Shown: piece by piece, positions 1,716-41,946 of the stretch
Layout: each line of letters starts with the position of its first letter
Position numbering within the stretch: the stretch's first letter is position 1
Virus record (IMG/VR): IMGVR_UViG_3300005526_000006
Span: 1-42,521 of that record
DNA from: a virus
Length of the DNA stretch: 42,521 bases
Strand: one strand, 5' to 3'
Program-made: the position numbers and the translations under genes
The notes under the pieces: model-generated
What the model was told of the DNA's origin: nothing
The model's input: the letters and a program-made list of their open reading frames with translations, nothing else
The model's database searches: none

Positions 1716-1735
1716 TTTGTTTTGGGTTGTGGCTG

Positions 1736-1768
1736 AAGGCCGATCGGCAATTGTCGGTCGGCCTTTTT
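1736..1768 (+). terminator. Rho-independent terminator after the capsid/cement genes
   Basis: AAGGCCGA (1736-1743) pairs perfectly with TCGGCCTT (1758-1765) around a 14-base loop, and the stem runs into a TTTTT tract (1764-1768). It lies in the 64-bp gap between the cement gene and the next gene. It probably limits read-through from the highly expressed head genes into the connector and tail genes. Confidence 0.8.
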
Positions 1769-14246: not shown

Positions 14247-14675
14247 ATGGCCGACACTGAATATTTCGATTACCGGAAAGCGGTGGAGAACATCGAGGGC
14301 ACCATTCGTGCGCTCCAACCGCCAAAGACGCTCCTCCTGGTGGACGATGACTCGGCTGACATTTTACTCACCTTGAAAATCCTCAACCTTTTCAACGTGA
14401 AAGTAACCGTCGCCCATAGTGGCGAAGAGGCAAGGGATACGATTCAGAACAAGAATTTTGATTTGGTTTTATTCGACCTGGTTATGCCGGGATTGGATGG
14501 GCTTGAATTTGCGTTAGGGGCGGCGGGCCTTATGCCCGGTGCAAGATTCATTTTAGTCACTGGCTATCCGTTGAGTCCCAAAGTGGAAGCGGTCCTGAGA
14601 CTGGGGGCGGTGATGTTGGCCAAACCTTTGACTCGTCAAAGTCTCGAACTGATCCTTCCACTTAAACCGCGATGA
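14247..14675 (+). CDS. CheY-like response regulator receiver domain
   Basis: The 142-residue protein is a single receiver domain with all key residues: the acidic cluster D33-D35, phosphoacceptor D77 (LFDLVMPGLDG), T105 in ILVTGYP and K126 in LAKPL. It has a roughly 25-residue N-terminal extension and no output domain. Receivers are phosphorylated by histidine kinases; none is encoded here, so a host kinase would be the donor. Neighbours are the LuxR-type HTH gene (3 bp upstream) and a membrane coiled-coil gene coupled by ATGA. This is unusual in a phage late region. Confidence 0.9.
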   Translation: MADTEYFDYRKAVENIEGTIRALQPPKTLLLVDDDSADILLTLKILNLFNVKVTVAHSGEEARDTIQNKNFDLVLFDLVMPGLDGLEFALGAAGLMPGARFILVTGYPLSPKVEAVLRLGAVMLAKPLTRQSLELILPLKPR

Positions 14676-17868: not shown

Positions 17869-18173
17869 TTGGTTCCTTTGTTCGCTAAAAATGCGAGCAT
17901 CGGGCGGCTAGTCTTTGTTGGTTTGTGCCACGCGATGCCCACTCCTCCTAAAATGTGCAGCGAAAGTGCAGCGGAAATCCGATGCGCTCGAAATTAGCCC
18001 TTAATTCCGAAACCCTCCAAAACAAGGAACCTACTCTTGCAGATAAAGCGGGATTCGTGCCAATAGGCCCTATTTGCAGGGTTGAGAGCGGCCTTGATTC
18101 GGTATTTACGGCTTGCTCCATATGTGCCTCACATTCAATCTCGTTATATGACGTGTAATGCAGTTATACAGAG
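17869..18173. other. Gene-poor region before integrase (putative attP/regulatory region)
   Basis: About 300 bp without a convincing gene. The two overlapping open frames here (17797-17997, 17955-18158) have no start signals or protein-like sequence. The region holds repeated TGCAGCG boxes at its left and right borders and AT-rich stretches (GTTATATGAC, CAGTTATACAG) near 18143-18170 that may be integrase promoter or arm-binding sites. Phage attachment sites usually lie beside the integrase gene, so attP is most likely here. Confidence 0.45.
17950..17962 (+). repeat. 13-bp direct repeat AAAATGTGCAGCG, left copy
   Basis: This 13-mer is identical to 18182-18194 and is followed in both places by a second TGCAGCGG box 10-11 bp on and a GATGCG/ATGCG box further on. 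Paired, phased repeats flanking the region before an integrase gene are typical of integrase/excisionase binding sites or an att core. Confidence 0.5.
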
Positions 18174-19313
18174 TTGTCAAGAAAATGTGCAGCGGATTGC
18201 AGCGGATGCGTGAAAGTCTCCCGCGCTCACTATCACGGCCTTACCCGATGGCGGGTGACGTGGCGTTCTGGCGGGAAAACCGTTCGCCGGTTCTTTAAGA
18301 CGCTCCGAGCTGCCAATAAGTTCGCAAAGAACATCGCCGGGGAGATTGCCAAATACGGGGAGGAATGGTCCGGCCTGCCAGCCCGGGACCGCGCTGAAAT
18401 CATAGATTGTTGGCGGCGGGCGCGGGAACGCGGCTATTCAATCGCTGAAGCCTTGAGGTTTTGGGAAACGCACGGCGCAAAGTCGGCAAGCGGGACAACG
18501 GTATCCGACCTGGCCACCAAGTTCCTTGAGGCGAAGCGTGCGAAGGGACTCAGGCCCGAAAGCCTCCGCTTGCTCGAGACAACCATGGACCAATTCAAGG
18601 TCGGACGCGAGAACTCCAAGGCCAGCGACGTTTCAACCGAGGATGTAACCGCATTCCTTTCTGAGCGGTCCTGGGGACCGTGGCGCCGACGCGGGGTGAT
18701 TATCGACTTGGGTAATATGTTCAACTGGGGGATTCGCGCTGGTCTGCTTATCCGCAATCCCGTTGCGCCAATCGAACGCCCCACAATCGAACACAAAACA
18801 CCCCGGGTTCTATCCGTGGAGGATTGCAAGCGCCTGCTAAAGCTCTGCCGCAACGAACATCCGAAGCTTTTGGCGTGGCTCGTTATAAGCCTATTCGCCG
18901 GATTGCGGGCGGCCGAGGTGGAACGATTGACCTGGGGTGACGTTAAGGAATCGCACATTGCGCTCGCCTCGCACCAAACCAAGGGCCGCGCGCGTCGGCT
19001 GGTTAAAATCCGCCCAGTCCTTGAGGGCTGGCTCACACTTTGCCGGAAGTCCGATGGCTCCGTTTGTCCGGGCGACCACCATAAGCGGGCAAACGCGCTG
19101 CGTGCTGAATTTGGGAACTGGCCAAAGAATGTTTTGCGCCATTCTTTCATCTCGTATGCGCTCGGAGTTGGCGAACCAATCAAAGACGTGGCGATGGAAT
19201 CGGGCAATAGCGAGGAGATTATCTTTCGGCACTACAGGGAGATTGTGACGCAAGAGCAGGCGAAGGAGTTTTTGGGGCTTACGCCGTCGGTCATGGGAGC
19301 GTCGGAAGCTTGA
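18174..19313 (+). CDS. int: Tyrosine recombinase (integrase)
   Basis: The 379-residue protein integrates the phage into the host chromosome. It has an N-terminal arm-binding region, a SAM-like core-binding domain (about residues 108-200) and a C-terminal catalytic domain. Catalytic residues visible are R245 (FAGLRAAEVE), K270 (HQTKG), R322/H323 (NVLRHSF) and nucleophile Y354. The usual first His of H-x-x-R is N319, as in integrases I associate with Verrucomicrobiota/Planctomycetes, and the usual GH is GN345. Start TTG 18174, or GTG 18210, which would leave the TGCAGCG repeat outside the gene. Confidence 0.93.
   Translation: MSRKCAADCSGCVKVSRAHYHGLTRWRVTWRSGGKTVRRFFKTLRAANKFAKNIAGEIAKYGEEWSGLPARDRAEIIDCWRRARERGYSIAEALRFWETHGAKSASGTTVSDLATKFLEAKRAKGLRPESLRLLETTMDQFKVGRENSKASDVSTEDVTAFLSERSWGPWRRRGVIIDLGNMFNWGIRAGLLIRNPVAPIERPTIEHKTPRVLSVEDCKRLLKLCRNEHPKLLAWLVISLFAGLRAAEVERLTWGDVKESHIALASHQTKGRARRLVKIRPVLEGWLTLCRKSDGSVCPGDHHKRANALRAEFGNWPKNVLRHSFISYALGVGEPIKDVAMESGNSEEIIFRHYREIVTQEQAKEFLGLTPSVMGASEA
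18182..18194 (+). repeat. 13-bp direct repeat AAAATGTGCAGCG, right copy
   Basis: Second copy of the 13-mer at 17950, overlapping the first codons of the integrase frame if TTG 18174 is used. It is followed by TTGCAGCGG and ATGCG boxes as at the left copy. Confidence 0.5.
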
Positions 19314-19815
19314 TTGAAACTGTGACGGAGTTCGTTCCCTGAGCTATCCGCGTGCGATTCGGCATCTGCTTCAAGGAATCGAACACCGCACCGATGTTGG
19401 TTCGGTCGCAGCCTGAAACGCAATAGATGATTGTCCCGGACCTGCGATTGGTCTCGACGGCAACATTTAAGTCGCCGAGGTCCTTTAGGTAAAGCTCTGA
19501 CACCTTCGCCGGACTCGGCACGGTGTTGGTCGACCGCTCAAGCCACTCGGCATGCCTCATCCTGGCGCCGAATTGTCCAGCTTCGGCTTTGATCTCTTGC
19601 TGTCTGGACTTCTCAGCATCGGTTGTGGCCTTATTGCTTTCTGAAACCCTCGCTTGTTCTGCTTTGTCCTTTTCTGCTTGTTCTGCGGCTGATTTCTTTT
19701 GCAGGTCCCACATGTCTTTGTTCCACTGACTGGGGCTTTTTGGATTCCTATAGGTCTGCGCTGACCCAAGACAAACACCAACAACCAGGAACATTATTTG
19801 CGTTTTAATATTCAC
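19291..19815 (-). CDS. Secreted Lys/Glu/Gln-rich protein, lysogeny-conversion candidate
   Basis: The 174-residue minus-strand product has a signal peptide (MNIKTQIMFLVVGVCLGSA/Q). The mature part has a long charged helix (residues 34-75) and then a small alpha/beta domain (VAVETNRRSGTIIYCVSGC near residues 118-136) with a pair of Cys. GTG at 19815 is preceded by GGAGGG. It is transcribed towards the integrase and overlaps its 3' end by 23 bp. Genes here are often expressed from the prophage, so a role in the host envelope is possible. Confidence 0.7.
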   Translation of the reverse strand: MNIKTQIMFLVVGVCLGSAQTYRNPKSPSQWNKDMWDLQKKSAAEQAEKDKAEQARVSESNKATTDAEKSRQQEIKAEAGQFGARMRHAEWLERSTNTVPSPAKVSELYLKDLGDLNVAVETNRRSGTIIYCVSGCDRTNIGAVFDSLKQMPNRTRIAQGTNSVTVSIKLPTLP

Positions 19816-19950
19816 TTCCCTCCGTAGTTTTGCCGACCCCCAAAGTTATTCACATGGACAGCCTTTGTCCTAGCAGTTGCGGCGTAATGTCGTGCATGAA
19901 AATTAAAAAGGAGACTGGTCTAACCCACATACAAATGCTTATGAGCGCCA

Positions 19951-20154
19951 TCATTTTGACGAGGGAGGGGAATCGCCTTTTGACGGAGGCCGCCGTTTTA
20001 AGACGAATTGCTCTGCATCGGCATTGGCAATCATGTAATCCTCCACCGCCTTTAAAACAACGTCTGAGACGCTAATTCCGAAGTCTTTGGCGTGGCGCTG
20101 CACTTTTTGAAAAAGCGTGCGGGTGCATCTCGCCCTCAAGACGGCATCCTTCAT
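19951..20154 (-). CDS. Ribbon-helix-helix regulator 2
   Basis: The 67-residue minus-strand product (MKDAVLRARCTRTLFQKVQR...) fits the Arc/MetJ-type ribbon-helix-helix pattern: a short N-terminal strand (AVLRARCT) then two helices (FQKVQRHAKDFG, VSDVVLKAVEDYMI). It is coupled by ATGA (20151-20154) to the upstream minus-strand RHH gene, to which it is similar. Likely a DNA-binding repressor or co-repressor in the lysis-lysogeny switch. Confidence 0.7.
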   Translation of the reverse strand: MKDAVLRARCTRTLFQKVQRHAKDFGISVSDVVLKAVEDYMIANADAEQFVLKRRPPSKGDSPPSSK

Positions 20155-20330
20155 GCCGTTGCGATCTGCCCCCTGAGCACCGTTTGAACCCTAGCTACAT
20201 AAGTATCGCAAGCGATCCGTATAATATCGGATGGGTCTAGCTTCTGCATTTTTGCAATTTCTTCGATTTGTTGTTTTAAAACATCCGGGCATCTAGCCCG
20301 AATTACCGCATTTTTAGGGTCTTTCTTCAT
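20151..20330 (-). CDS. Ribbon-helix-helix regulator 1
   Basis: The 59-residue product from the ATG at 20330 (MKKDPKNAVIRARCPDVLKQ...) has the RHH layout: strand NAVIRARC, helix DVLKQQIEEIAKMQ, turn LDPSD and helix IIRIACDTYVARV. In-frame upstream starts at 20339 and 20348 would lie inside a palindrome. It diverges from the RHH gene at 20420 and shares its beginning (MKK...RARxP), so the three are paralogues. It is probably the first gene of the leftward repressor transcript. Confidence 0.7.
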   Translation of the reverse strand: MKKDPKNAVIRARCPDVLKQQIEEIAKMQKLDPSDIIRIACDTYVARVQTVLRGQIATA

Positions 20331-20349
20331 TGTGGCCATTTGTGCCACA
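20331..20349. promoter_or_regulatory. Palindromic operator candidate (left)
   Basis: TGTGGC (20331-20336) and GCCACA (20344-20349) form an inverted repeat with a 7-base spacer, directly upstream of the start of RHH regulator 1. RHH dimers bind such dyads, so autoregulation is the likely role. Confidence 0.5.
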
Positions 20350-20378
20350 CGAAAGTTTAAAAATCAAGCAGAAACCTA

Positions 20379-20407
20379 TTGACGCCTTGAGCTACGCTGT
20401 GCTACAT
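20379..20407 (+). promoter_or_regulatory. Rightward promoter candidate for the early operon
   Basis: TTGACG (20379-20384) and CTACAT (20402-20407) are 17 bp apart in the gap between the divergent RHH genes. The -10 match is weak. The -10 region overlaps the 17-bp palindrome, which is what is expected of a repressor-controlled promoter. Confidence 0.4.
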
Positions 20408-20415
20408 CGTAGCAC
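20399..20415. promoter_or_regulatory. Perfect palindrome GTGCTAC-ATC-GTAGCAC, operator candidate
   Basis: Seven-base arms pair exactly around a 3-base centre. A further direct GCTAC half-site lies exactly 10 bp upstream (20391-20395), so half-sites repeat by one helical turn. The element ends five bases before the ATG of the rightward RHH gene. It is probably the site where one of the RHH proteins represses the early promoter. Confidence 0.6.
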
Positions 20416-20419
20416 GACG

Positions 20420-20605
20420 ATGAAAAAACGATTCCCGAAAGAGACTTCCGACCAGGATAAAATGACTGGCGTGCTGCGCGCCAGAGCGCCTATCCGACTC
20501 AAGGAAATGGTGTCAGACCTCGCCAGAAAGCGCCTGACCAACGAAGGCCAAATAGTCAGGGAGGCGGTTCAAGCCTGGGTCGAGAAACAAGAAAAAGCCG
20601 CTTGA
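20420..20605 (+). CDS. Ribbon-helix-helix regulator 3 (rightward, Cro-like position)
   Basis: The 61-residue product starts at ATG 20420. The strand TGVLRARAP is followed by helices IRLKEMVSDLARKR and EGQIVREAVQAWVE, an RHH domain similar to the two minus-strand RHH proteins. It is the first gene of the rightward early operon, so it holds the position of a Cro-like antirepressor in a divergent switch. It overlaps the next gene by TTGA. Confidence 0.75.
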   Translation: MKKRFPKETSDQDKMTGVLRARAPIRLKEMVSDLARKRLTNEGQIVREAVQAWVEKQEKAA

Positions 20606-20805
20606 ACACCATTCTCCGAACCATGCGCCGTTCCGGCCTGCTCAACACCAAGCAGGCCGCCAAATGGCTGCACCTTTGCGAGCACACAGTCAGAGGCATG
20701 GTCGCCGCTAGGGAACTGAAGGCGATCCGAATCGGTTCAAAGATTCTCAGATTTCGCCCTGAAGATTTGCAGGACTGGGCAGCAAAGAAAGCGAAAGCAC
20801 GATGA
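20602..20805 (+). CDS. Excisionase-like helix-turn-helix protein
   Basis: The 67-residue product has a MerR/HTH_17-type domain: LLNTKQAAKWLHLCEHTVRG followed by the wing RIGSKILRFRPEDLQDWA. This family includes excisionases that direct prophage excision, and it lies after the switch in the early operon. Start TTG 20602 (TTGA overlap) or ATG 20623. It overlaps the HNH gene by ATGA. Confidence 0.7.
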   Translation: MNTILRTMRRSGLLNTKQAAKWLHLCEHTVRGMVAARELKAIRIGSKILRFRPEDLQDWAAKKAKAR

Positions 20806-21305
20806 TGACCCTCACCAAACTAATCCCCCGCCTTTTAGCCCGCGCTGTCCGCCAGCCGAACGGTTGCTTGGTTATCCCTGGCAATCGGCGCTACATCGAT
20901 GTTGCATATGATGGCAAACGCGAGCGAGCCCATCGCGCAATCTGGGAGCGCAACTGCGGGCCAATACCAGAAGGCTTGGAAGTTTGCCACGCTTGCGACA
21001 ATACCCGCTGCATTGCGATTGCGCATCTCTTTGTCGGCACGCACGCCGCGAACATTGCCGACCGTGACGCCAAGGGCCGCAACGGAACGCTCGGTGAGGC
21101 TTCCCCGCTTGCTAAATTAACCCGCGAGAAAGTCCTTGCGATTGACGCCCTGTTAGACCGGCTTCCATTTGATGCTATAGCGGAACAATTCGCGATTTCC
21201 AAACAGACGGTTGTCCGCATCGCAAACCGCACGACGTGGAAGCATCTCTTTCAGCCCCACGCCACCCGCCCCTCCCGTCGCGATGCGGAATTGATGAACG
21301 TATGA
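20802..21305 (+). CDS. HNH endonuclease with C-terminal HTH
   Basis: The 167-residue protein carries an HNH_3-type motif: H63 in VCHACDNTRC, N67, C70, H75 in IAHLFVGT, then NIADRDAKGRNG. The C-terminal segment (residues 102-148) is a helix-turn-helix, as in homing-like HNH enzymes that bind DNA through it. Probably a free-standing homing-type nuclease inserted in the early operon. ATG 20802 overlaps the previous stop. Confidence 0.75.
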   Translation: MMTLTKLIPRLLARAVRQPNGCLVIPGNRRYIDVAYDGKRERAHRAIWERNCGPIPEGLEVCHACDNTRCIAIAHLFVGTHAANIADRDAKGRNGTLGEASPLAKLTREKVLAIDALLDRLPFDAIAEQFAISKQTVVRIANRTTWKHLFQPHATRPSRRDAELMNV

Positions 21306-21535
21306 AAAAGCAGGCCATCCCACAGCCTCAAATCGTCAGGATACCGGATTACAAGCCGCTCTTAATAAGCGGAACAATAGGCTTGGCAGTCGTTTCTCTG
21401 GCGCTGATTTTTACATCGTGCAATAGGCTTACCGCTCCTCCGCACGATGTGACTCTGGATTCCATTTGGATAAAGATCAATGGGACTAGTTACTGGTATC
21501 ACGCCGGGGGAGGCACTTTTACGCCGTCACCATGA
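21302..21535 (+). CDS. Single-pass membrane protein of unknown function
   Basis: The 77-residue product starts at ATG 21302 (ATGA overlap), with a cytosolic N-terminus of about 20 residues and one hydrophobic helix (LLISGTIGLAVVSLALIF, residues 20-37) ending in TSC. The C-terminal part is extracytoplasmic and aromatic (DSIWIKINGTSYWYHAGGG). A lipobox-like FTSC might allow lipidation. Possibly a superinfection or membrane protein; no family is recognised. Confidence 0.55.
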   Translation: MKKQAIPQPQIVRIPDYKPLLISGTIGLAVVSLALIFTSCNRLTAPPHDVTLDSIWIKINGTSYWYHAGGGTFTPSP

Positions 21536-21714
21536 TCCCCCACCCCCAATCATTCGCAAATCGTAGAGGCATTCTCGCACCTTACGCCGCCTGCGAGATG
21601 AACCACCATATCGCCTGCATCCGATTGGCTAAAGCCGTCCGCAATTGCGCGTTGATTAAATTGGCGTGCGAATTGGCTGCGGCACGGGCGGCGATGAAAG
21701 CGAGGGCTGCGTGA
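21532..21714 (+). CDS. Small protein of unknown function
   Basis: A 60-residue frame coupled by ATGA to the previous gene. The product has several Cys, Arg and Ala residues (CELAAARAAMKARAA) and is probably helical. It is kept because the ATGA coupling pattern of this operon continues, but the sequence itself is not informative. It is followed by the structured-RNA candidate. Confidence 0.4.
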   Translation: MIPHPQSFANRRGILAPYAACEMNHHIACIRLAKAVRNCALIKLACELAAARAAMKARAA

Positions 21715-22375
21715 TTATCCCGATGGCAACCGCAGTGCTTTTCACGGTCCTATTCTTGTTCGCGTTGTGGCGTGGCGCTCGCGGGATTAATTTGGCTGGC
21801 GGCGGCGTGGAAAGCAGACACGCTACTTACACCTCAAAAAACCAAGTTGCTCGACCCGGGAGATTGGCGCCCGAGGTAATGCGAAGGTCCGGATGCAATC
21901 ACACGGATACAAGAGCAATCGGAGCAGAGTCGGATGACGATCCGATAACATCGCCGTTAATCTGCGGCGGCGCCGTAAGTGTTTTAGGGGATGGCCATAG
22001 CAGGAGCAGCGACCTGCCCGCCAGCCAATCCCTTCACGCAATCAGACGCCGGATATGGGTGAAGGTTGCGGAGAGAATTTCTGAAATTCCCATCACTGAG
22101 CAGCTAGTCGAAGCAGTCCCCGGAAGTAGCTTAGATGATGCTGCACCCAAAGGACTGGGTTGGCCGGCAAATAAGCCATTGATGCGAAAACCGAGAGTGC
22201 GCCTGAGTGTGCACCGGCCCGATAGGGTTATTACCGGGGACACTTTCATAATTTCTGGCACCCGCCAGATTGCAGCAACTCCCCACAAGCCGAGTCTTAG
22301 ACTAAACCCCCATACTCTAAGGCTCGGCATCTTGCTTTTCGTGAATCACGCAGTCAACTAAAACCCACAATTCCC
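21715..22375 (+). ncRNA. Candidate large structured RNA (about 600 nt)
   Basis: No convincing gene lies here. A single open frame (21711-22361) uses many AGA/AGG/ATA codons and does not look like a protein past its first 30 codons. The bases instead pair into many hairpins: 21854-21877 (7 bp with a bulge), 21930-21945 (TCGGAT/ATCCGA), gcagg/cctgc nested inside a GGGAT-GGC/GCC-ATCCC stem near 21988-22032, CTTCAC/GTGAAG near 22032-22064, GAATTT/AAATTC at 22075-22089, ACCCA/TGGGT at 22145-22160, TCTGGC/GCCAGA at 22254-22269, and a 13-bp terminal stem at 22289-22328. Size and complexity recall GOLLD/ROOL RNAs of phages; this is unproven. Confidence 0.4.
22289..22328 (+). terminator. 13-bp stem-loop, possible RNA 3' end or terminator
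   Basis: GCCGAGTCTTAGA (22289-22301) pairs with TCTAAGGCTCGGC (22316-22328) with one U-G pair on the plus-strand RNA, around a 14-base C-rich loop, followed by ATCTTGCTTTT. On the minus strand the U-G becomes an A-C mismatch, so the plus-strand transcript is favoured. It is the longest hairpin I found in the early region. Confidence 0.55.
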
Positions 22376-22615
22376 ATGAAAACAGAACAACTTCCAAACA
22401 TGCCACCGCCCGACGCAGTTGGGACCGCTGCACAGAAATTCCGCACTGCGCTGGAAAAACTCGAAGCAGCTCAAGAAGAAAAGGGAGAAACCTCCGCCGC
22501 GTTATTCAAGTCCTTAGTCAAAGCTAAACGGACATCCATACAAATTGACGGCTACAAGTTTGAGCGCATTCATACCGGGCCGAAAGACTCAATAAAGGTG
22601 CAGAAACCGAAGTAA
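22376..22615 (+). CDS. Small helical protein of unknown function
   Basis: The 79-residue product is charged and helical (FRTALEKLEAAQEEKGETSA, residues 22-41), with a basic end (SIKVQKPK). It restarts the early operon after the structured RNA region with an ATG preceded by an A/C-rich leader and no Shine-Dalgarno. No family is recognised. Confidence 0.6.
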   Translation: MKTEQLPNMPPPDAVGTAAQKFRTALEKLEAAQEEKGETSAALFKSLVKAKRTSIQIDGYKFERIHTGPKDSIKVQKPK

Positions 22616-22622
22616 TCCCACT

Positions 22623-22880
22623 ATGGCCATCGAAACTTGCAAATCATTCAAAACGTCTGACGGTCGGACATTTCTCAACCGCGAGGAGGCGCAGTTGCAT
22701 GAGATTGAAATTCTCGCCGCTCATGAGAGCCAATTATTAGACCCTGGCGATGGCCAGACGCCTGGACCCGGCGCATTCGCGAAATGGATCGTCGCCAACA
22801 AAGACGCGCTGCTGGCCATTCTCTCAACCCGTAAACCTCGCGTCGTTAAGGCAAAGCAGAAGAAGGTGGTGGCAGCATGA
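22623..22880 (+). CDS. Small protein of unknown function
   Basis: The 85-residue product begins MAIETCKSFKTSDGRTFLNR, which resembles the N-terminus of small phage proteins that read a 'key = value' like strand pair, then continues as helix and ends with basic KVRKAKQKKVV-type residues. Overlaps the next gene by ATGA at 22877. No function assigned. Confidence 0.6.
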   Translation: MAIETCKSFKTSDGRTFLNREEAQLHEIEILAAHESQLLDPGDGQTPGPGAFAKWIVANKDALLAILSTRKPRVVKAKQKKVVAA

Positions 22881-23077
22881 GCGACTATAGCCCAGTGGTG
22901 GCGTTCTGTGAATCGCGGATTGAAACGCTCAAATCTCATAAACGATTCGCCGTTGGATTGACAGCCGAGGACGAGGCCCGCATCGACGAACTCACGATGA
23001 TTGTGACGCTGTGCCGTGGGTTGCAAAAGACCGACGATATGCTACGGAAACAGTTGGGGCTCGTGGAGACGATATAG
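22877..23077 (+). CDS. Small helical protein of unknown function
   Basis: The 66-residue product is a helical hairpin type (ESRIETLKSHKRFAVGLTAE and ARIDELTMIVTLCRGLQKTD). It is coupled by ATGA upstream and abuts the RecE-like gene, so it may be an accessory to recombination or replication. Confidence 0.55.
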   Translation: MSDYSPVVAFCESRIETLKSHKRFAVGLTAEDEARIDELTMIVTLCRGLQKTDDMLRKQLGLVETI

Positions 23078-23962
23078 ATGAGCCAACCGTCACAACCTGG
23101 ATTCTATTACGGCGTGGCATTCGACGATTACCGTTCATGGCCCGCCGTCAATTTCTCCCTGCTGAAGGAAATGGACAAGACGCCGATGCACTGCGCTTAC
23201 CGTCGCAGCCATCCATCCGAAGCAACCGAGGAAATGGAAGTCGGAGGAGCCGCGCATTGTCGCATCCTGGAGCCAGATAAATGGGATTCGCGCTTTTACG
23301 TGTGCCCGCCATGCAAACTAAACAGCAAAGAGGGCAAAGCGATAATGGCCGATGCCATCCTTGCCGCCAAGGGCCGAACCATCGTCAGGATGGAACACGA
23401 CACTGAAGCCAGCGCAGCCGAAGCAATGGCGGAATCCTTATCCGGTAATTCAGTTGCGGAATCGCTCATAAACGACATCGGGCGGACTGAGGTATCCGCG
23501 CTTTGGTTTGATGAAATGGGGCAGCAATGGTGCAAGGGTCGATTTGACAAGCTCAACGTCGGTGTCACCCCGTCGGTTGGTGACCCGATACAGCCGACGA
23601 TTGTCGAAATCAAAACCTCATCGCGGTTAGATGATTTCGCATTCAGCCGCACCGCTCGCAATCTGCACTATGACGCACAGGCTGCTTGGTATTGCTGGGG
23701 ACACGTTTGCATCACAGGCGAAACCGCAGCGCACCGAATCATTGTTATTGAGAGTCACCCGCCGCATACGGTTCGCGTGATGGAACTGGACGAACCTTCA
23801 ATGCAAGGTGGCGCGACAAAATATTCCCGGTGGTATGGCGAGTATTGCAAATGCACCAAGCGCGGACAGTGGCCGGGATGGCCGGAGAAGGTGCAAAAGT
23901 TGAGCGTGCCGCAGTTTGGGGAACTCGATCTAGTTGTAGGCGGGAAGGAGTACGCGTTATGA
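23078..23962 (+). CDS. RecE/exonuclease VIII-like PD-(D/E)xK nuclease
   Basis: The 294-residue protein is a 5'-3' exonuclease-type enzyme for phage recombination. Motifs: GGAAHCRILEP with H60 (near residues 56-66), GRFDKL with D157, IVEIKT with E177 and K179, and Y198/Q201 in the following helix. It opens a DNA-processing run with methyltransferases and HNH genes. No RecT partner is recognised nearby. It overlaps the methyltransferase by ATGA. Confidence 0.8.
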   Translation: MSQPSQPGFYYGVAFDDYRSWPAVNFSLLKEMDKTPMHCAYRRSHPSEATEEMEVGGAAHCRILEPDKWDSRFYVCPPCKLNSKEGKAIMADAILAAKGRTIVRMEHDTEASAAEAMAESLSGNSVAESLINDIGRTEVSALWFDEMGQQWCKGRFDKLNVGVTPSVGDPIQPTIVEIKTSSRLDDFAFSRTARNLHYDAQAAWYCWGHVCITGETAAHRIIVIESHPPHTVRVMELDEPSMQGGATKYSRWYGEYCKCTKRGQWPGWPEKVQKLSVPQFGELDLVVGGKEYAL

Positions 23963-24606
23963 ATCCCTATTACGACGATGGCAAAGGCATCGTGATTTAT
24001 CACGGCGATTGCCGGGAGATTTTGCCTACATTGCCGAAGGTTGATTTGGTGCTGACTGACCCGCCGTATGGGATTAACGAAAACTATGCCAGTTATATTG
24101 ACCGGCTTGGAGAATTAAGGGTAACGATTGCACAATCCATGCCATTGATTATCAAAAATTCGGTTGTAGCTATTTTGACGGTTGGGGTTGGTAATATATT
24201 CGAGTATCCGAAACCGACATGGACCCTCGCGTGGGTTACGCCGGCGGGTTGCGGGAGCGGTCCTTGGGGATTTTGTTGCTGGCAACCTGTTCTTGCTTAT
24301 GGAAAAGACCCTTACTTAGTGAACGGATTAGGCAGGAGACCAGACTGCATTCTACACACTGAATCAGCAGAGGAAAACGGCCATCCATGCCCTAAACCTA
24401 TAGGATTTTGGAGTAAGCTGCTTCTTAGGGGTTCACCTAAAGACTCAGACTATATTTTAGACCCCTTCATGGGCAGCGGCACCACCCTCCGTGCAGCCAA
24501 AGACTTAGGCCGACGCGCTATCGGTATCGAAATCGAAGAGCGCTACTGCGAAATTGCGGCGCGTCGCTTGCAACAGGAGGTTTTACAACTATGCACTACC
24601 GCCTGA
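23959..24606 (+). CDS. DNA methyltransferase, N4/N6 type (DPPY)
   Basis: The 215-residue protein methylates DNA, probably to block host restriction. The catalytic DPPY (residues 34-37) precedes the AdoMet-binding FMGSG (170-174), the order of beta-class enzymes. It is small, with a short central part as target-recognition region. It is coupled to the RecE-like gene by ATGA and overlaps the next gene by 16 bp. Confidence 0.85.
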   Translation: MNPYYDDGKGIVIYHGDCREILPTLPKVDLVLTDPPYGINENYASYIDRLGELRVTIAQSMPLIIKNSVVAILTVGVGNIFEYPKPTWTLAWVTPAGCGSGPWGFCCWQPVLAYGKDPYLVNGLGRRPDCILHTESAEENGHPCPKPIGFWSKLLLRGSPKDSDYILDPFMGSGTTLRAAKDLGRRAIGIEIEERYCEIAARRLQQEVLQLCTTA

Positions 24607-24902: not shown

Positions 24903-24988
24903 CCCCCATCTCCTACGCCGAAGCTGACAAGAATCGGGTGCGCCTTTATTGGCCGGGAGTATCGAAGATTCGCGGGCTGATTTTATGA
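24899..24988 (+). CDS. Possible 29-residue peptide
   Basis: ATG 24899 overlaps the previous TGA and the frame ends with an ATGA overlap at 24985. The peptide (MTPISYAEADKNRVRLYW...) is charged and aromatic. Its coupled start and stop make it plausible as a translated linker or a small protein; function is unknown. Confidence 0.45.
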   Translation: MTPISYAEADKNRVRLYWPGVSKIRGLIL

Positions 24989-25554
24989 AACAATACACCG
25001 TTGAGGAAGCTAAGGCGATGACGGCCAAGCAGCGTTCAAGGTTGAGACTGCGCGGCTTTGACGTTCCAAAACTCAGACCGGGCGCTCCGCTGGGCTTCAA
25101 AATGTCGCCCGATGTAATTCAAAAACGAAAGAGATTTGGTCCGCAGCATCATAGGTGGAAAGGTGATTCTGCAAAGCCATCAGCCGGGAGGGCTAGGGCT
25201 AGAAGTCTATTTAAGTCCCCCGGCGTCTGCTCGGGGTGCGGCAAACCAGGTAGAATCGAGCGCCACCACGTAGATGGTAATACTCTAAATAATTCGGTTG
25301 AGAACATTCAGTTTCTTTGTTCGTCGTGCCACCAATCGGTCGATGGGCGCTCGGAAAGATTTAAGGAAATCGCAAGACTACACTCGGGTGTTGGCAACGC
25401 GGCTTCAGCAATCGCACGAAAAAGCAAAACTCATTGCAAATGGGGTCATCCATTTTCAGGTGATAACCTTCTGATTACGCAGAGGGGGAGGGTATGCCTG
25501 ACGTGTAGAAGGCGCTTCGAATTTGAAAGTAAAAGGCGGGGCGCTGCGAAATGA
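24985..25554 (+). CDS. HNH endonuclease with zinc site
   Basis: The 189-residue protein starts at ATG 24985 (a longer frame from 24949 overlaps upstream coding). A zinc-bound HNH core is visible: C82 and C85 (CSGCGKPG), H94/H95 in RIERHHVDGNT, N103-like residues, and C112/C115 in FLCSSCHQS. The N-terminus is basic. A second Cys cluster (THCKWGHPF, VCLTCRRR) near the end may bind zinc. Probably a homing-type endonuclease; overlaps the next small gene by ATGA. Confidence 0.8.
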   Translation: MKQYTVEEAKAMTAKQRSRLRLRGFDVPKLRPGAPLGFKMSPDVIQKRKRFGPQHHRWKGDSAKPSAGRARARSLFKSPGVCSGCGKPGRIERHHVDGNTLNNSVENIQFLCSSCHQSVDGRSERFKEIARLHSGVGNAASAIARKSKTHCKWGHPFSGDNLLITQRGRVCLTCRRRFEFESKRRGAAK

Positions 25555-32232: not shown

Positions 32233-32516
32233 AAAAGAAAATATCAAAACTCGACCAAAGGATTGAAAAGGTTCTGACACAATGGGGCACTCCATTTAGG
32301 TCGCTCAGCGTTGAATCAAAGGCTAATTGGGAAAACCTGGTGCGTCTCATCATTAAGGAATGTGTTAGGTATCCACCCACGACTAAATCTTTAATTTGTG
32401 ATGTTGGCGAACTGACAAACACCGTCCGGTTGCTGCGCCGGAAGCTGGAGAAAAGAGACTTGATAATAAAAGCAATTCAGGCCGCCCTTAGTGATATTCG
32501 GGGGCTTCCAAAATGA
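32229..32516 (+). CDS. Small helical protein between terminase genes
   Basis: The 95-residue product starts at ATG 32229 (ATGA overlap with terS) and ends with ATGA at the large terminase. It is highly charged and helical (KLDQRIEKVLTQWGTPF, LLRRKLEKRDLIIKAIQAAL). It may be a terminase accessory or adaptor. No family is recognised. Confidence 0.55.
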   Translation: MKKKISKLDQRIEKVLTQWGTPFRSLSVESKANWENLVRLIIKECVRYPPTTKSLICDVGELTNTVRLLRRKLEKRDLIIKAIQAALSDIRGLPK

Positions 32517-34351
32517 CCCCCATCCGCGATGCCTGGGAATCGGTCTGGCGCAGACGCGACCTTCGCCCCATACCGGAATGGGCGTTGGACAACACCGACC
32601 TGCAAGCACCACTCACCATAACTGGCCCATTCGACGTTTCACGCTCGCGTCATTTCATTGAGCCGTTAGCCGCGCTTCAAGACGACCATGTGCGCGAGGT
32701 GAACATCCTTAAACCAGTCCGCGGCGGCGGCACACTAATTGCCGACATTTGGGTGCCGTGGACACGCGCCAACGACCCAGGCCCGGTCATGTTTGTTTTG
32801 CAAACCGACCCGATAGCCGATGACCACTTTACCAAAGTGCTAATGCCTACACTCGAAAGTGTTCCGGCGATAAGGAGCGAGATTGATTCACTCGACCGCT
32901 TCAAGATAACCGCGCGCAAGATTGAGTTTAACGACGGGAATCATTTGCACGTAAACGGACCATCTATAGGAAATTTGCAAACGAACGCATTCCGGTTTCT
33001 CGTTGAGGACGAATGCTGGCTTTATCCCGACAAGATGGCGGATGCTGAGGGTCGCGTTGGCGATTTCCAAAAGCTCGAGAACTCAAAGATTCTCAGGGTG
33101 AGCCAGGGAGGTCCAAAGGACGGCGTTGAGATGGACCATTGCGCATGGGGCCGCGCGTATCGCCGAGGGTCGGTTCACGAATGGGAAGCCGCCTGCCCTT
33201 TGTGCAACGCATTCTACGAGCCCATATTCACCGGCCAACGTGCGGACGGCAGCTTTTACGGCATCACTTGGGACAAGATAATGCTGCCAAACGGCGATTA
33301 CGACATCGCTAAATGTGCAGGAACCGGCCGTTTCGAATGTCCGCATTGCAACGGGCCGGTCTTAGACACACCGCGCACGAAAAGCGAATGGAACCGCACT
33401 GGACGCTACAAGCTTGCAACCGAAGAAAACCGCAAGCGCAAGTCATTCCACTGGGAAGCGGTGATTGATTACCCCTGGGATGAATTGATCACCCTTTGGC
33501 TCGATGCCTGTAACGCGGAACGCCGTGGCGATCTGAAGCCGAAGTTGCAGTTCTATCAAAAGCGCAGGGCCATGCACAAAGATGAGGAATCACTTTTGCG
33601 CGGCGGTCTGCACTTTGGCCGGCAGGTTTACGAAATCAACACCGATTGGCCGGAAGAAAAAGCGCGGTTTCTAACCCTCGACCGGCAAGAGGAGGATTTG
33701 TTTTGGTGGACAGTGCGCCAATGGTCATTGGAGAAGTCGCGCAAGCTGGGCTTTGGCAAGGCTTACGGTTTTGCCGAGTGTGAGCGCATCCGGGAGAAGT
33801 TCAAAGTGCCGCCCAATCACACGTTTTGCGACTCGGGATTCTTGCCAAAGGGCGACAACGGCGTTTACATCGCCTGTATAAAATTCGGATGGCGCGCTGT
33901 GAAGGGAGACGACAAGTTTTCCTTTACACATCAAGGCCCAAAAGGTTATGAACTTCAGAAGTGTTACGCGCCCCTCACTTGGGCAGATCCGGGGAGCGGC
34001 ACTGCGGACCAGGGCAGGCGCCGCTGCCCGCTTATCCTCTTCTCCAAATATCAACTCAACCAGCAGGTTCAGCGCCTTATCGACCAGGGCGTTTGGATGG
34101 AGCCCCAGAACTCCGAAGACCCTGAGATGGAAAAGGAGTATGCCGCACAGATGGGTAGCCGCATAAAACAAAGCGAATACAACCCCAAAACCGGGCAAAC
34201 TAAAGTCTGGTGGAAGGAGTCTAAGAACGATCACGCGCGCGACTTGGCCAACATGCAAACCCTTGGCGCGATTCTGCGTGATTGCCTGCCAGACCCGGCG
34301 ATGGAGAGGCTAACGAAATCAGAGAAGGAGAAAATGGAGGAGGCAGCGTGA
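32513..34351 (+). CDS. terL: Terminase large subunit (GpA type)
   Basis: The 612-residue protein is the ATP-driven packaging motor and nuclease. A Walker A-like KPVRGGGT (67-74), Walker B FRFLVEDE with D166/E167, and a CPLC...CPHC zinc ribbon (about residues 224-280) are the usual GpA-family marks. A nuclease region with an acidic FCDSGF follows in the C-terminal half. It is a lambda gpA-like enzyme. ATGA and GTGA couplings link it to its neighbours. Confidence 0.9.
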   Translation: MTPIRDAWESVWRRRDLRPIPEWALDNTDLQAPLTITGPFDVSRSRHFIEPLAALQDDHVREVNILKPVRGGGTLIADIWVPWTRANDPGPVMFVLQTDPIADDHFTKVLMPTLESVPAIRSEIDSLDRFKITARKIEFNDGNHLHVNGPSIGNLQTNAFRFLVEDECWLYPDKMADAEGRVGDFQKLENSKILRVSQGGPKDGVEMDHCAWGRAYRRGSVHEWEAACPLCNAFYEPIFTGQRADGSFYGITWDKIMLPNGDYDIAKCAGTGRFECPHCNGPVLDTPRTKSEWNRTGRYKLATEENRKRKSFHWEAVIDYPWDELITLWLDACNAERRGDLKPKLQFYQKRRAMHKDEESLLRGGLHFGRQVYEINTDWPEEKARFLTLDRQEEDLFWWTVRQWSLEKSRKLGFGKAYGFAECERIREKFKVPPNHTFCDSGFLPKGDNGVYIACIKFGWRAVKGDDKFSFTHQGPKGYELQKCYAPLTWADPGSGTADQGRRRCPLILFSKYQLNQQVQRLIDQGVWMEPQNSEDPEMEKEYAAQMGSRIKQSEYNPKTGQTKVWWKESKNDHARDLANMQTLGAILRDCLPDPAMERLTKSEKEKMEEAA

Positions 34352-36199: not shown

Positions 36200-38056
36200 A
36201 TGGCCCGCCTGCGTAACTCCCTAGACGTCGCCAAATCCCGTTTCAGAAACAACGGCACGGCGAACGGAAATGGCCATTCAAACGGCATCCAGGCCGCCGC
36301 AGACCCATTCCGCAACGTCCAGAAGGGTTATTCCTACGGATTCAACAACACGCTGATCGAGGCCGCGGTTCAGACGCAGGACCGGCAGACGGTCAACTAT
36401 GTCGATTACGATTTCCACAGGGTTGTCTCAGTTCAAGGACGACGAACACTCCTGAGCCTCGGCAGAACGATGTATTGGCGCATCCCCGCGCTCCAAGGTG
36501 CGATAAAAGAGCAGGCTAATCTTGCCGTTAGCCCATTTAACCCGATTTATGAGGGCAAGAATGAAGGTTGGGGGCAGGATGCAACCGATTGGCTGAACGG
36601 CTTTCACAAGGTCATGGACCTCCAGTCTTGGCCTTACAATTACGAGTCATACTGCGAAACCCTTATCATCATGGGGGTAGTTGACGGCGAGTTGTTCACG
36701 CTTTTGACCCAGGACAACTCGGGCAACCCAAGAATCCAGACGATTGGCTCTCACCGCGTCGGCAGCCGCCACCAAACCGGAGGAATTGCGCACGTCAAAT
36801 TCATCGGCAATCAGCTTTTCGTTGATGACGAGCTCGTGGACGACAATTTGCCGTTCACCTTCGCCGCCGCCGTTGAATGGGATGCGCCGATGATAGACGG
36901 GGCAATCCTGGACGACCAGGGGCGCGCCATCGCCTACCGTGTTTACGATGACCCCGTAGTCTCGAGCGATTACCGGGACATTTCTTCGCGCAACCTGTTC
37001 CCCGCATTCCTCCCTGAGTTCCCCGGCCAAGTGCGCGGCTATTCCATGCTGGCATCCTCCGTGTTCGACTGGCAGGACGTGCGTGAGTGGAAACGGCTGG
37101 AGATGCTTGCCCAAAAGGGCTTTTCAAGCCACGGCATCATCGAGGAAAACGAGCAGGGCTACGTGGATGAATCAAAGGCCATCGTAGCGCAATCCGCCAC
37201 GTTCGACACCGACAATAAAAAGACCGGGCCCGACATGGTGAAGCTCGACGGTGGCACATACACCGTTTTCAAGGCCGGCACAAACTCAAAACTCAGCGCG
37301 TTTGATTCCGGCAACCGACCCGGACGCAACACGCAAGACTTCCTCGACCAGACCATCCGTGAGGCAATGCGCGGCATGGAATGGGATGCCTTTTTCTCCC
37401 TGGACCCCGCGCACGTCGGCGGCGCACCGATGCGCGTCATTGTTGATAGGGTAAACCGCACGATTCGCAAGCGGCGTAGGTTGGCCGGCATGTGCGCCTT
37501 GCGCGTTGATGTCTATGCGCTGGCAAAAGCAATCAAGAATGGCGACCTGCCATTCGACCCCGATTGGTTCAAGTGGAGCTATCGCGGCCAACCGGACGTT
37601 ACCGCCGACCGCCGGTATGAGTCTCAAACCGACCTCATGGAATACGAGCAGGGCTGGATCAACCTTGAGGACATCCAGGCGAGGCGGCAAGGCAACTGGC
37701 AGAAGAGGCGTGAGCAACGCTTTGTCGAGGCCGATGACAAGATGACGCGGGCTGAAGCTTTGGTTAAAGCGCACCCCGATTGTTCATTCCAGGAGGCGAT
37801 GACCGAGCTGGGCATGACGGGGACCGTTGGTTTCACAATGTCGCGCAAGGACCAGGGTGGAAACGCGCTTGAAGACGATAATTCTAATGCACCCCAAAAT
37901 CCGAAGCCGGGAGAATCGTCCGACGCTAAGGCCGAACACCCCGGCGCACCGATAACCCTGAATATCGAGAACCGACCTGGAGTCGCGAAACGCAAATTGA
38001 TATTCAAGCGCGATACTCAAGGGGTGATCACGTCTGCGGAAATTGAAGAACGCTAA
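36200..38056 (+). CDS. Portal protein (lambda gpB type)
   Basis: The 618-residue protein forms the head portal ring. The central SSRNLFPAFLPEFPGQVRGY and DWQDVREWKRLEMLAQKGF segments and the late PDWFKWSYRGQPDVTADR part are typical of lambda-family portals. An N-terminal Asn/Gly linker (NGTANGNGHSNG) and a C-terminal tail of polar residues are additions. It starts five bases after the previous gene. Confidence 0.85.
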   Translation: MARLRNSLDVAKSRFRNNGTANGNGHSNGIQAAADPFRNVQKGYSYGFNNTLIEAAVQTQDRQTVNYVDYDFHRVVSVQGRRTLLSLGRTMYWRIPALQGAIKEQANLAVSPFNPIYEGKNEGWGQDATDWLNGFHKVMDLQSWPYNYESYCETLIIMGVVDGELFTLLTQDNSGNPRIQTIGSHRVGSRHQTGGIAHVKFIGNQLFVDDELVDDNLPFTFAAAVEWDAPMIDGAILDDQGRAIAYRVYDDPVVSSDYRDISSRNLFPAFLPEFPGQVRGYSMLASSVFDWQDVREWKRLEMLAQKGFSSHGIIEENEQGYVDESKAIVAQSATFDTDNKKTGPDMVKLDGGTYTVFKAGTNSKLSAFDSGNRPGRNTQDFLDQTIREAMRGMEWDAFFSLDPAHVGGAPMRVIVDRVNRTIRKRRRLAGMCALRVDVYALAKAIKNGDLPFDPDWFKWSYRGQPDVTADRRYESQTDLMEYEQGWINLEDIQARRQGNWQKRREQRFVEADDKMTRAEALVKAHPDCSFQEAMTELGMTGTVGFTMSRKDQGGNALEDDNSNAPQNPKPGESSDAKAEHPGAPITLNIENRPGVAKRKLIFKRDTQGVITSAEIEER

Positions 38057-39430: not shown

Positions 39431-41128
39431 ATGCCCGACATATTCCTTTTTCAGCCGCCCAAGACGACGCTAATCTCCGATAGCTTCACAATCGGAGCTG
39501 ACGCGGACCTAAATACCCATCTCACCGATCAGGGCTCCGCCTGGGTGAAATCGGGCAGCCCGATCGTAAATGACATTGCGGCCACGGGCAAAGCGACGGA
39601 TGAGGTGACCGCCGGCACCGGGCCGTTTTATTACGTTAATCAGCTATTGCCGGCAGACTGTCAGGCGCAGGTGGACGTCGCCTACCCAAACAACACAGAT
39701 GCCGTCGATGCCGATATTGGGATTAGATACAACGGAGCCAACCCAGCGCTAAATCTCGCCTCCTACTATTTCGTCGCCTGGTTTCCGGACATAGCACAGG
39801 CTCGGCTCTATAAAGCAGTAGCCGGAGTAATGACCCAGCTCGGTGGGAACTTAACGACCTCCGGCCTGTCGCAGACCTTGCTCGTCAAAGCCATTGGTTC
39901 AACCATTTCGGGCTTCGCCAACGGGGTTCTCATCGCGTCAGTCACTGATACTTCTATAAGCGGCCCCGGTTTCTTTGCGATGACCGACTTGCGCTTCTCA
40001 CGCTTCGGCAGCGTGGGAACCAACCACATGACCTATGACAACCTCGTAGTGTCAGTTCTTACAGATGTAACGCTTCGAGACCCGCGGCTTCAAACCGGCG
40101 GCTTTATTTCCGGGGCCGCACTTTCACTGGACAGCTCGCCCGACACACTCGCGGGTGCTGGCGCAATTACTTGCAGCGCGGCGATGGCCCTTGCCAGCAC
40201 TGACACCGTTTCTGGCGCTGGATCGGTAACTGAGGCAGGAGCTATCGTTCTGGCGGCCTCGGATACGTTGAAAGGCGCTGGCGCAATCATAGATGCGGGC
40301 GCTATCGCCTTTGCCGTATCCGACACTTTGGCCGGCAAGGGGGCCATCACGGAGGCTGCCGCTTTGGCTTTTGCCGCAACTGACACGCTCAAGGGCGCAG
40401 GTGCGATTACCGAAGCCGGAGCGATTGCCTTCGCTAATTCCGACACACTGAAAGGGGCCGGCGCGATTACGGAAACTGCGACCAACTCGTTCTCTGCCGC
40501 GCCGGAAACACTGAGCGGCGCCGGCGCTGTCTCAGATTCGGCACCGATAGTCTTTTCCGCGAGCGACGCGCTCAACGGTTCAGCCGCGCTCGCAACTGGG
40601 CCGTCGATAATTTTCGCGGCACCACAATCCACAACTGGCGGTGCCACAATCGTCAGCATTGGTGGGGTCACATTCACATCAACGGCTAATTTCTCAGATG
40701 AGCCGGGCACCATTGTCGCCAGCGGATCACTTAGTTTCTCCACTTCATTCACCGCACTACAACCAACTCCTCCTATAGCGCCATCATCAATTGGCGGCGG
40801 TGGTGGAGGGCTTTCCGTCAGATTTTGGAATGCGCTCGCCAAAAAGACAAAGAAGCGAAAAAGGAAGGATGGGGAGTATGTAACTCCTACAGTTGCTCTT
40901 GCTGGATTTTCCTCTCGGATTGAGTTCGAGTCGAGGTTGGTTGCTGGAGGAGGTTCGATTGTGGTATGCCATTCCAATCTTCTCTTAGGATCTCAATCGT
41001 CTGCGTGTGGCTTGGCTAACGCAAAATCAAAGTGTGGCATAAGGTTCTCACGCAGGGTGCAGGCAACTCGGAAATGGAATCAAAGCGACGAAGAATTAGC
41101 CGCAATCCTTTTGACGGCAATCGACTAA
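39431..41128 (+). CDS. LamG-like head and 20-residue repeat adhesin
   Basis: The 565-residue protein has an N-terminal concanavalin-like domain (about residues 10-215; WVKSGSPIVNDIAATGKATD and TQLGGNLTTSGLSQTLLVKA). Residues 236-400 contain about eight repeats of 20 residues based on SDTLKGAGAITEAGAIAFA, then a Gly-run hinge (GGGGGG, 455-460) and a basic KKTKKRKRKDGEYV part. Likely a long surface adhesin or fibre on the virion. It is unusual between portal and protease. Confidence 0.75.
   Translation: MPDIFLFQPPKTTLISDSFTIGADADLNTHLTDQGSAWVKSGSPIVNDIAATGKATDEVTAGTGPFYYVNQLLPADCQAQVDVAYPNNTDAVDADIGIRYNGANPALNLASYYFVAWFPDIAQARLYKAVAGVMTQLGGNLTTSGLSQTLLVKAIGSTISGFANGVLIASVTDTSISGPGFFAMTDLRFSRFGSVGTNHMTYDNLVVSVLTDVTLRDPRLQTGGFISGAALSLDSSPDTLAGAGAITCSAAMALASTDTVSGAGSVTEAGAIVLAASDTLKGAGAIIDAGAIAFAVSDTLAGKGAITEAAALAFAATDTLKGAGAITEAGAIAFANSDTLKGAGAITETATNSFSAAPETLSGAGAVSDSAPIVFSASDALNGSAALATGPSIIFAAPQSTTGGATIVSIGGVTFTSTANFSDEPGTIVASGSLSFSTSFTALQPTPPIAPSSIGGGGGGLSVRFWNALAKKTKKRKRKDGEYVTPTVALAGFSSRIEFESRLVAGGGSIVVCHSNLLLGSQSSACGLANAKSKCGIRFSRRVQATRKWNQSDEELAAILLTAID
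40136..40630 (+). repeat. 60-bp tandem repeat array (20-residue units)
   Basis: About eight units of 60 bp encode the repeating ADTL-x-GAGAIT-x-AG-x-IAFA pattern of the adhesin. DNA copies have diverged while keeping the protein repeat, so the array is under selection and may still vary in copy number. The antisense open frame over this array is a by-product. Confidence 0.85.
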
Positions 41129-41133
41129 TAGAA

Positions 41134-41946
41134 ATGAAACAGTATCCGCATTGTGTTGAGCAGCTTTTCTATAAGCCCCTGGTTATCACCCAGGCTCGAC
41201 ACGCCGCGCTGTGCCGAATCCTTGAAACCCGGATGCGCGGGGATATGCCGATGCCGCTTCCGACAACTGAACCGGATGACGACGACGAAATCGAGCCGGA
41301 TTGGCAAAGCTACGGTGCCGATGCGGTAATCCCGGTTCACGGCGTTCTAACCGCTCACGAATCTGACATACCCGCCAGTTCATGCGGCTGCGGACTGGAT
41401 ACCGTTCGCGGGATGATAAAGGCGGCAGTAGCCGACCCCGAGGTTGAGAAAATCATTCTCGACTTTCGCACCCCGGGCGGTGGCGTCACCGGACTTCCTG
41501 AACTTGGCCGAGAGATTGCATCCATCCGAGACAAAAAGACCATAGCCTTCACCGATTCAGAATGTTGCTCAGGTGGCGTTTGGCTGGCGTCTCAATGCCA
41601 GTATTTCTACACCACCGGCAGTGCATCCGTCGGTTCTATCGGCGTTTGGTGCGCTTACCTGGATATGTCGCGCATGATGCAGAATGAGGGCGTGAACATG
41701 CAGGCGATTAGCGCGGGGAAATACAAGCTTCTCGGCGCTTACTGGAGGCCGTTGAACGATGAAGAAAAGGGGATGCTGCAATCGGAAGTGGATAACATTT
41801 ATAACCAGTTCACCGAGGCGGTAAATCTCAACCGCGAAGTGGACCGCGAGTATATGCAAGGCCAGATATTCAGCGGAACCGAAGCCGTGGAAATCGGGCT
41901 CTGCGATGGGCAAGTCGAATCAATGGATGAATTGCTCGAAAGTTGA
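41134..41946 (+). CDS. S49 family head maturation protease
   Basis: The 270-residue protein is a SppA/S49-type peptidase that matures the prohead. The nucleophile S146 lies in DSECCSGGVWLAS, and the general base Lys is K196 or K198 in SAGKYKLLGAY. PGGGVTG (114-120) and the TGSASVGSIGVW block (161-172) are the family marks. It starts at ATG 41134, just after the adhesin stop; the longer frame from 41032 overlaps that gene. It precedes the scaffold and capsid genes. Confidence 0.85.
   Translation: MKQYPHCVEQLFYKPLVITQARHAALCRILETRMRGDMPMPLPTTEPDDDDEIEPDWQSYGADAVIPVHGVLTAHESDIPASSCGCGLDTVRGMIKAAVADPEVEKIILDFRTPGGGVTGLPELGREIASIRDKKTIAFTDSECCSGGVWLASQCQYFYTTGSASVGSIGVWCAYLDMSRMMQNEGVNMQAISAGKYKLLGAYWRPLNDEEKGMLQSEVDNIYNQFTEAVNLNREVDREYMQGQIFSGTEAVEIGLCDGQVESMDELLES

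Follow-up and report, generated by a model that had tools for sequence, protein, structure and literature searches.

An open reading frame with an overlapping start, a terminator-like hairpin and excess predicted RNA structure in the early operon of a phage

Does a hairpin-rich stretch among the early genes of a phage produce a large structured RNA, or is it a gene whose transcript happens to fold? The question is raised by positions 21715–22375 of virus record IMGVR_UViG_3300005526_000006, of which we analyzed positions 1–42,521 (42,521 bases, one strand; hereafter, the window). A first-pass annotation had proposed a giant RNA in this region and likened it to GOLLD and ROOL RNAs. We instead read 21711–22361, with a probability of roughly one half, as an orphan gene of the early operon with a terminator- or attenuator-like hairpin near its 3′ end. 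In our judgement, this reading is preferable to a structured RNA, a decaying gene or a member of the GOLLD or ROOL class; the weights that we give to these readings are judgements, not computed values.

The phage and its relatives

The window encodes a terminase large subunit (32513–34351), a portal protein (36200–38056), a head protease (41032–41946), a major head protein (316–1302), an integrase (18174–19313) and an exonuclease VIII-like protein (23078–23962). Given these genes, the record most likely represents a temperate tailed phage. The only named phage that the portal matches is Verrucomicrobia phage P8625 (26.5% in two records). The integrase matches eight records, of which the best are three Akkermansia phages (26–29%, E 7e-8 to 3e-18), followed by five records of Pseudomonas phages (26.7%, E near 3e-6). 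From the P8625 and Akkermansia matches, we infer a host within Verrucomicrobiota. A literature search on Verrucomicrobia phages and noncoding RNA returned no paper. A response-regulator receiver domain (PF00072, E 8.5e-15) is encoded at 14247–14675 (+ strand), flanked by late phage genes.

The segment under study sits within a run of + strand early genes. The next gene in the operon (22376–22615, + strand) encodes 79 amino acids of unassigned function and has phage-like codon usage (codon z 3.54, reached by 0 of 200 shuffles; amino-acid z 3.35, reached by 1 of 200). The genes from 22376 onward include the exonuclease. No promoter-like site was found on the + strand within 17954–23319 (four sites in 10 kb, with a shuffle mean of 6.4). 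Between the integrase and the early operon, the opposite strand contains a 174-codon open reading frame (ORF) at 19291–19815, whose codon usage resembles that of the phage (z 4.37) and whose composition is protein-like (z 3.44). This ORF has no Pfam match and only weak PHROG matches (the best to a zinc-finger family, E 0.0026, then Rz-like spanins, E 0.008 and 0.013), and is probably a real gene.

The segment occurs once in its own record, and no homologue of it or of its predicted product was found in the viral contigs, phages, plasmids and virus records searched. In phages, the segment DNA had no match; at an E-value of 10, three records contained pieces of 24–25 nt (E 2 to 6), which we attribute to chance. 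The predicted protein matched two phage records (E 3 and 8), neither a homologue, and gave nine pattern matches in viral contigs, none of which was confirmed. No plasmid matched the segment DNA. Two sets of 11 virus records, searched with DNA and protein, contained no homologue (best DNA match 18 nt, E 0.09), an empty result that shows little without a positive control. When 43 loci were searched by BLAST, the matches listed were protein pieces with E-values of 0.08 or more for codons 41–216 and pieces with E-values of 2.3 or more for the segment DNA. Searches of genome collections gave 7 and 72 pattern matches, none confirmed. Two structure models built from the single sequence (R1 and R2) were run on 35 sources (403,989 bases) and, apart from one match with E 1.7, recovered nothing but their own location; since such models are weak, this is a weak negative.

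Other genes of the phage were used as baits for related loci. The HNH gene (24949–25554, + strand) led to six loci (33–59%), and none of their six records contains a relative of the terminase. The exonuclease led to four distant loci (27–38%), and the gene at 22376, the integrase and the gene at 24591 led to none. The portal recovered one locus as a single protein and 17 virus loci as an alignment (33–66%). Eleven of the 17 were searched for the segment; the remaining six come from records of 4.3–8.2 kb, and one of these six (L029) shares its record with L012. All six of the largest portal-locus records encode the terminase and portal as well as the head protease (27–61%), four of the six encode the major head protein (73–82%), and some encode certain other genes, which are late genes. 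By contrast, none of 12 tested window ORFs between 18174 and 23962 had a match at E 1e-3 in these six records, so their early modules are not recognizably related to that of the window. Weak matches to a 66-amino-acid protein (22877–23077) in two portal-locus records (E 0.2 and 0.5) were dropped because they fall within a 186-amino-acid ORF that is otherwise unmatched.

Six IMG/VR loci (L014, L015, L016, L023, L024 and L025, in records G012, G013, G014, G018, G019 and G020) have the terminase, the portal (51–66%) and head genes in common with the window, and their early modules differ where covered. Together with the window, these records appear to form a mosaic group of phages, presumably of Verrucomicrobiota.

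A long reading frame overlapping its upstream neighbor

The region had been described as lacking a believable gene, a description at odds with the frame at 21711–22361 (+ strand). This ORF of 216 codons starts with GTG, ends with TAA and encodes an N-terminal hydrophobic helix. Its start overlaps the stop of the preceding ORF (21532–21714) in a GTGA sequence (21711–21714), a layout typical of translational coupling, and four upstream junctions are likewise 4-nt overlaps (20602/20605, 20802/20805, 21302/21305 and 21532/21535). The frame is also difficult to explain by chance. Over its 648 nt, it stays open in only 3 of 20,000 dinucleotide shuffles, with any forward frame open in 11, and the other five frames over the same span contain 4 to 15 stops.

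Compared with shuffles that keep the frame open, the whole frame has a strong RNY bias (reached by 1 of 200) and triplet periodicity (0 of 200; z 4.5). Both signals extend into the 3′ part: for 21831–22358, RNY was reached by 0 and periodicity by 1 of 200 shuffles, and for 21882–22358 by 3 and 2 of 200, respectively. A separate RNY run gave 3 of 300 for the whole frame and 7 of 300 for 21831–22358. However, periodicity is also high in most antisense ORFs and several off-frame ORFs over genes, and most antisense ORFs score high in codon and composition tests as well. Periodicity by itself therefore identifies neither strand nor frame. Still, an open, overlapping frame with a triplet signal is hard to obtain from non-coding DNA, and for this reason we favor an orphan gene.

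Codon usage gives a mixed picture. The first 40 codons match the usage of the phage (z 2.39, reached by 3 of 300), which supports the orphan gene. By contrast, codons 41–216 are at chance (z −0.15; −0.02 in a second run), with an amino-acid composition that is neutral relative to average proteins (z 0.46, and 1.08 for the whole frame). Among 20 tested + strand genes, one, the HNH gene, has a composition as low as that of codons 41–216, and two are as low as the whole frame. The HNH gene (codon score −0.77, composition −0.60) is nonetheless genuine, with Pfam domain PF01844 and many PHROG matches, so failing these tests does not prove that a gene is absent. In both codons and amino acids it departs from the other genes of the phage, and it was perhaps acquired recently. 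The first-pass annotation had also pointed to an abundance of AGA, AGG and ATA codons. AGA and AGG are indeed about six times over-represented (11 of 216 codons, or 5.1%, versus 43 of 4958, or 0.9%, in phage genes), but ATA is hardly raised (1.4% versus 1.0%). Along with the chance-level codons, this AGA/AGG excess counts against the orphan gene.

These irregularities could indicate the remnant of a gene that was frameshifted after approximately codon 27, or acquired and now decaying, followed by an ordinary terminator; the openness and folding that persist would then be leftovers and chance. In addition to the atypical codons and a clear codon-usage signal confined to the first 40, this explanation can draw on an alternative + strand frame that follows the N-terminal helix and ends at a TAA (21763–21879). 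Over 28 codons (21793–21876), this frame has the better codon score (z 2.22, reached by 5 of 200, versus −0.22 for the main frame), but RNY favors the opposite. It has no match among phages. Whether as a frameshift or a short gene, its use is possible but unproven. Yet past codon 40 the main frame has no stop for a further 176 codons; for 21831–22358 alone, it was open in 22 of 20,000 shuffles, and any forward frame in 53. Moreover, the folding described below exceeds chance, more so on the + strand. We think a gene remnant improbable.

The predicted product of the orphan gene has no Pfam family at E 1 and only two PHROG matches (E 0.1 and 0.27). A structure model calculated from the single sequence, without an alignment, has a mean pLDDT of 48.5. 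It includes an N-terminal helix (residues 2–29), with mean pLDDT values of 85, 89 and 66 for the first three blocks of ten residues, and a short C-terminal helix (residues 200–215); residues 31–183 are below 50. The N-terminal helix is in favor of a gene, and the mostly low confidence of the model and the lack of a homologue or family in the searches above count against it. The product is probably a single-pass membrane protein. It would be translated by coupling to the preceding gene through the GTGA overlap and would be located in the membrane.

Predicted RNA structure and the terminal hairpin

Beyond the frame, the segment has more predicted RNA structure than expected by chance, and more strongly on the + strand. 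This excess is concentrated at 21880–22336 (+ strand, z −4.24, with 0 of 100 shuffles as low), where the reverse complement has a z of −1.65. Extending the span to 22375 gives a z of −4.20 (0 of 100; reverse complement −0.91), and the adjacent 21711–21879 folds worse than chance (z +2.18). An excess of RNA structure is thus supported for part of the region; the exact span originally proposed, 21715–22375, is weaker (z −2.20, −1.99 and −2.62 with 20, 60 and 100 shuffles, respectively).

The excess also stands out among other windows. When 210 windows of the + strand were scanned with a maximum pair span of 80 nt, the lowest was 21801–22335, which is 535 nt long (−4.27; the next was −3.44). None of 846 windows of 500 nt, from both strands of two relatives and from the − strand of this phage, was below −3.66 (7 shuffles per window, pooled standard deviation). 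Among 100 windows of 661 nt, four were as low as 21715–22375 by pooled z, one of them overlapping it (starting at 21841), and this one was the lowest of all (−3.76). The second-lowest (−3.11) was 20161–20821 (+ strand), which contains a 9-bp hairpin (20634–20659) within an HTH_17 gene. Shuffling synonymous codons, which keeps the protein and the codon usage, gave a z of −4.16 for 21882–22358 (0 of 60), and four control genes ranged from −0.61 to +0.49 under the same null. Because the shuffle, window and synonymous-codon nulls were all exceeded, we regard the excess as real.

Many short hairpins had been noted in the region, including nested ones, and these are predicted with high pairing probability. 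On the + strand, they comprise a stem at 21887–21908 (mean pairing probability at least 0.88), a 7-bp hairpin at 21929–21946 and a 6-bp hairpin at 21952–21969 (both 0.98), a 6-bp stem at 22114–22157 that encloses a 5-bp stem at 22126–22144 (0.88 and 0.95), and a 6-bp hairpin with a 4-nt loop at 22254–22269 (0.98). The nearest candidate for an 8-bp nested stem that had also been reported is a bulged stem of 7 + 3 bp around 21986–22034 in the local fold. Repeats were rejected as an explanation, there being just one 16-nt direct pair at 81%.

The 13-bp stem reported at the end of the region is present. Its arms (22289–22301 and 22316–22328, + strand) form 12 Watson-Crick pairs and one G-U pair around a loop of 14 nt, with a predicted free energy of −19.7 kcal/mol and a pairing probability of 1.00. 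The terminator-like hairpin (22289–22328) lies within the ORF, ending 33 nt upstream of the last base of the frame, and is directly followed by the T-rich but interrupted tract ATCTTGCTTTTC (22329–22340). The fold of 22289–22375 has a z of −5.42 (0 of 100 shuffles as low). Among the best 18 of 72 simple + strand stems of at least 9 bp, this hairpin ranks second in stability, and only the intrinsic terminator at 1735–1766 outranks it. A consensus terminator scan did not list the hairpin, but the scan allows loops of up to 8 nt and the loop here has 14. An intrinsic terminator has a stable GC-rich hairpin with a U run immediately after it; of these features, 22289–22340 has the stable stem, and its T tract (ATCTTGCTTTTC) is interrupted. 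It is unusual for a terminator to be located inside a reading frame, and the interrupted tract of such an in-frame terminator weighs against our preferred reading.

The minimum free energy of the folded segment is 25.5 kcal/mol below the shuffle mean with the hairpin (21880–22375) and 15.9 kcal/mol below without it. The hairpin thus makes up a good part of the excess, which supports the orphan gene, but because 15.9 of 25.5 kcal/mol remain, it is not the whole signal. Without the hairpin, 21880–22288 has a z of −2.72 (1 of 100 shuffles; reverse complement −1.60), a level also reached in the 210-window scan by three other windows at two places (11001 and 40001–40201). The synonymous-codon null then gives −2.38 (1 of 60), a low value that counts against the orphan gene. 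Given that the place was chosen for its hairpins, the excess beyond the terminal hairpin is modest. When G-U pairs are disallowed, the two strands of 21880–22336 are alike (z −2.48 and −2.71). A cluster of DNA-level palindromes alone was rejected, since the full + strand excess requires G-U pairs.

It is conceivable, although in our view less probable than the orphan gene, that 21880–22340 is a structured RNA of approximately 0.45 kb within the early operon, alone or overlapping a gene. Such an RNA may be a cis-acting leader or attenuator for the genes from 22376, or a small RNA that termination near 22328 would release. It may share its sequence with a translated frame and have a dual function, or it may come after a short gene for a membrane protein ending around 21879. 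Its rank in both window comparisons, a strand asymmetry that depends on G-U pairs, its survival of the codon-preserving null, the terminal hairpin with its T-rich tail and the chance-level codon and amino-acid scores past codon 40 all fit this idea. However, the frame over it is open and periodic, the fold without the hairpin is matched elsewhere in the phage, and the ensemble is not better defined than those of shuffled sequences, 8 of 25 of which had a positional entropy as low. Further, the + strand lacks a promoter-like site in the range given above, and no homologue was found, hence no covariation. The more specific idea of a new family of phage RNAs, approximately 0.45 kb long on the + strand, overlapping a translated frame and bearing its own terminator before the exonuclease genes, seems to us rather doubtful.

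We favor the orphan gene also because a terminator or attenuator readily accounts for its terminal hairpin and the remaining fold excess is modest. Some transcripts would end or be slowed at the hairpin, before the genes from 22376 are reached, and the genes behind it, including the exonuclease, would be expressed at a lower level; read-through or antitermination may overcome it. An orphan gene with a terminator near its end would add one more to the many in poorly sampled phages, and would matter little. If the fold is functional, the locus would represent a structured RNA, possibly overlapping a gene, in what is apparently a Verrucomicrobia-like phage. Hairpins and odd codons are insufficient to call a giant RNA, as the sequence beneath them may hold a frame that is open, coupled and periodic.

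Comparison with known RNAs and terminators

No Rfam family matched any part of the window at its gathering score. For 21500–22500, with E-values up to 10, only JUMPstart (− strand, 22399–22453, E 3.8) and RT-15 (21609–21693, E 6.1) were reported, both outside the folded segment. Other Rfam families, including introns and retrons, were rejected for lack of Rfam support. A tRNA or tmRNA was likewise rejected, with none predicted in the 42,521 bases, which may be an incomplete record.

The proposed kinship with GOLLD and ROOL therefore found no backing in these searches. According to PMC12286853, both are large phage RNAs with covarying stems that assemble into homo-oligomeric, cage-like structures, and they are often, but not obligatorily, near phage tRNA islands. 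The segment resembles ROOL RNA in being phage-encoded, several hundred nucleotides long (the env-120 ROOL has 659 nt) and rich in stems. It differs in having no model match, no tRNA and a frame that is open throughout, and the pseudoknots and conserved covarying stems of ROOL have no demonstrated counterpart in a segment known here from one sequence (PMC12286853). GOLLD RNAs are phage- or prophage-encoded, large and ornate, as was proposed for the segment, but many exceed 800 nt and occur near tRNA islands, and the segment does not match their model (PMC12286853). Phage context, length and many hairpins speak for a giant ornate RNA of this class. Against it are the lack of a match to either family at E-values up to 10 in 21500–22500, or of any at the gathering score, the absence of tRNAs in the window and the modest fold excess without the end hairpin. 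We consider such membership highly implausible.

A further comparison is with the putRNA of phage HK022, which works in cis during early transcription of the phage (PMC9378689). Like putRNA, the segment would be a folded RNA in an early phage transcript, a likeness by description only. However, put suppresses termination, and the strongest element of the segment is terminator-like instead (PMC9378689).

Another parallel is within the same phage. The intrinsic terminator at 1735–1766 (+ strand) lies behind the gene at 1311–1715 and outside any listed gene. Its 14-bp stem closes a 4-nt loop and leads into a TTTAATTT tail; the end of the stem is T-rich and is followed by TTAATTT. The hairpin at 22289–22328 differs from it in its 14-nt loop, its interrupted T tract and its location within an open frame, but both have a long stem followed by T residues.
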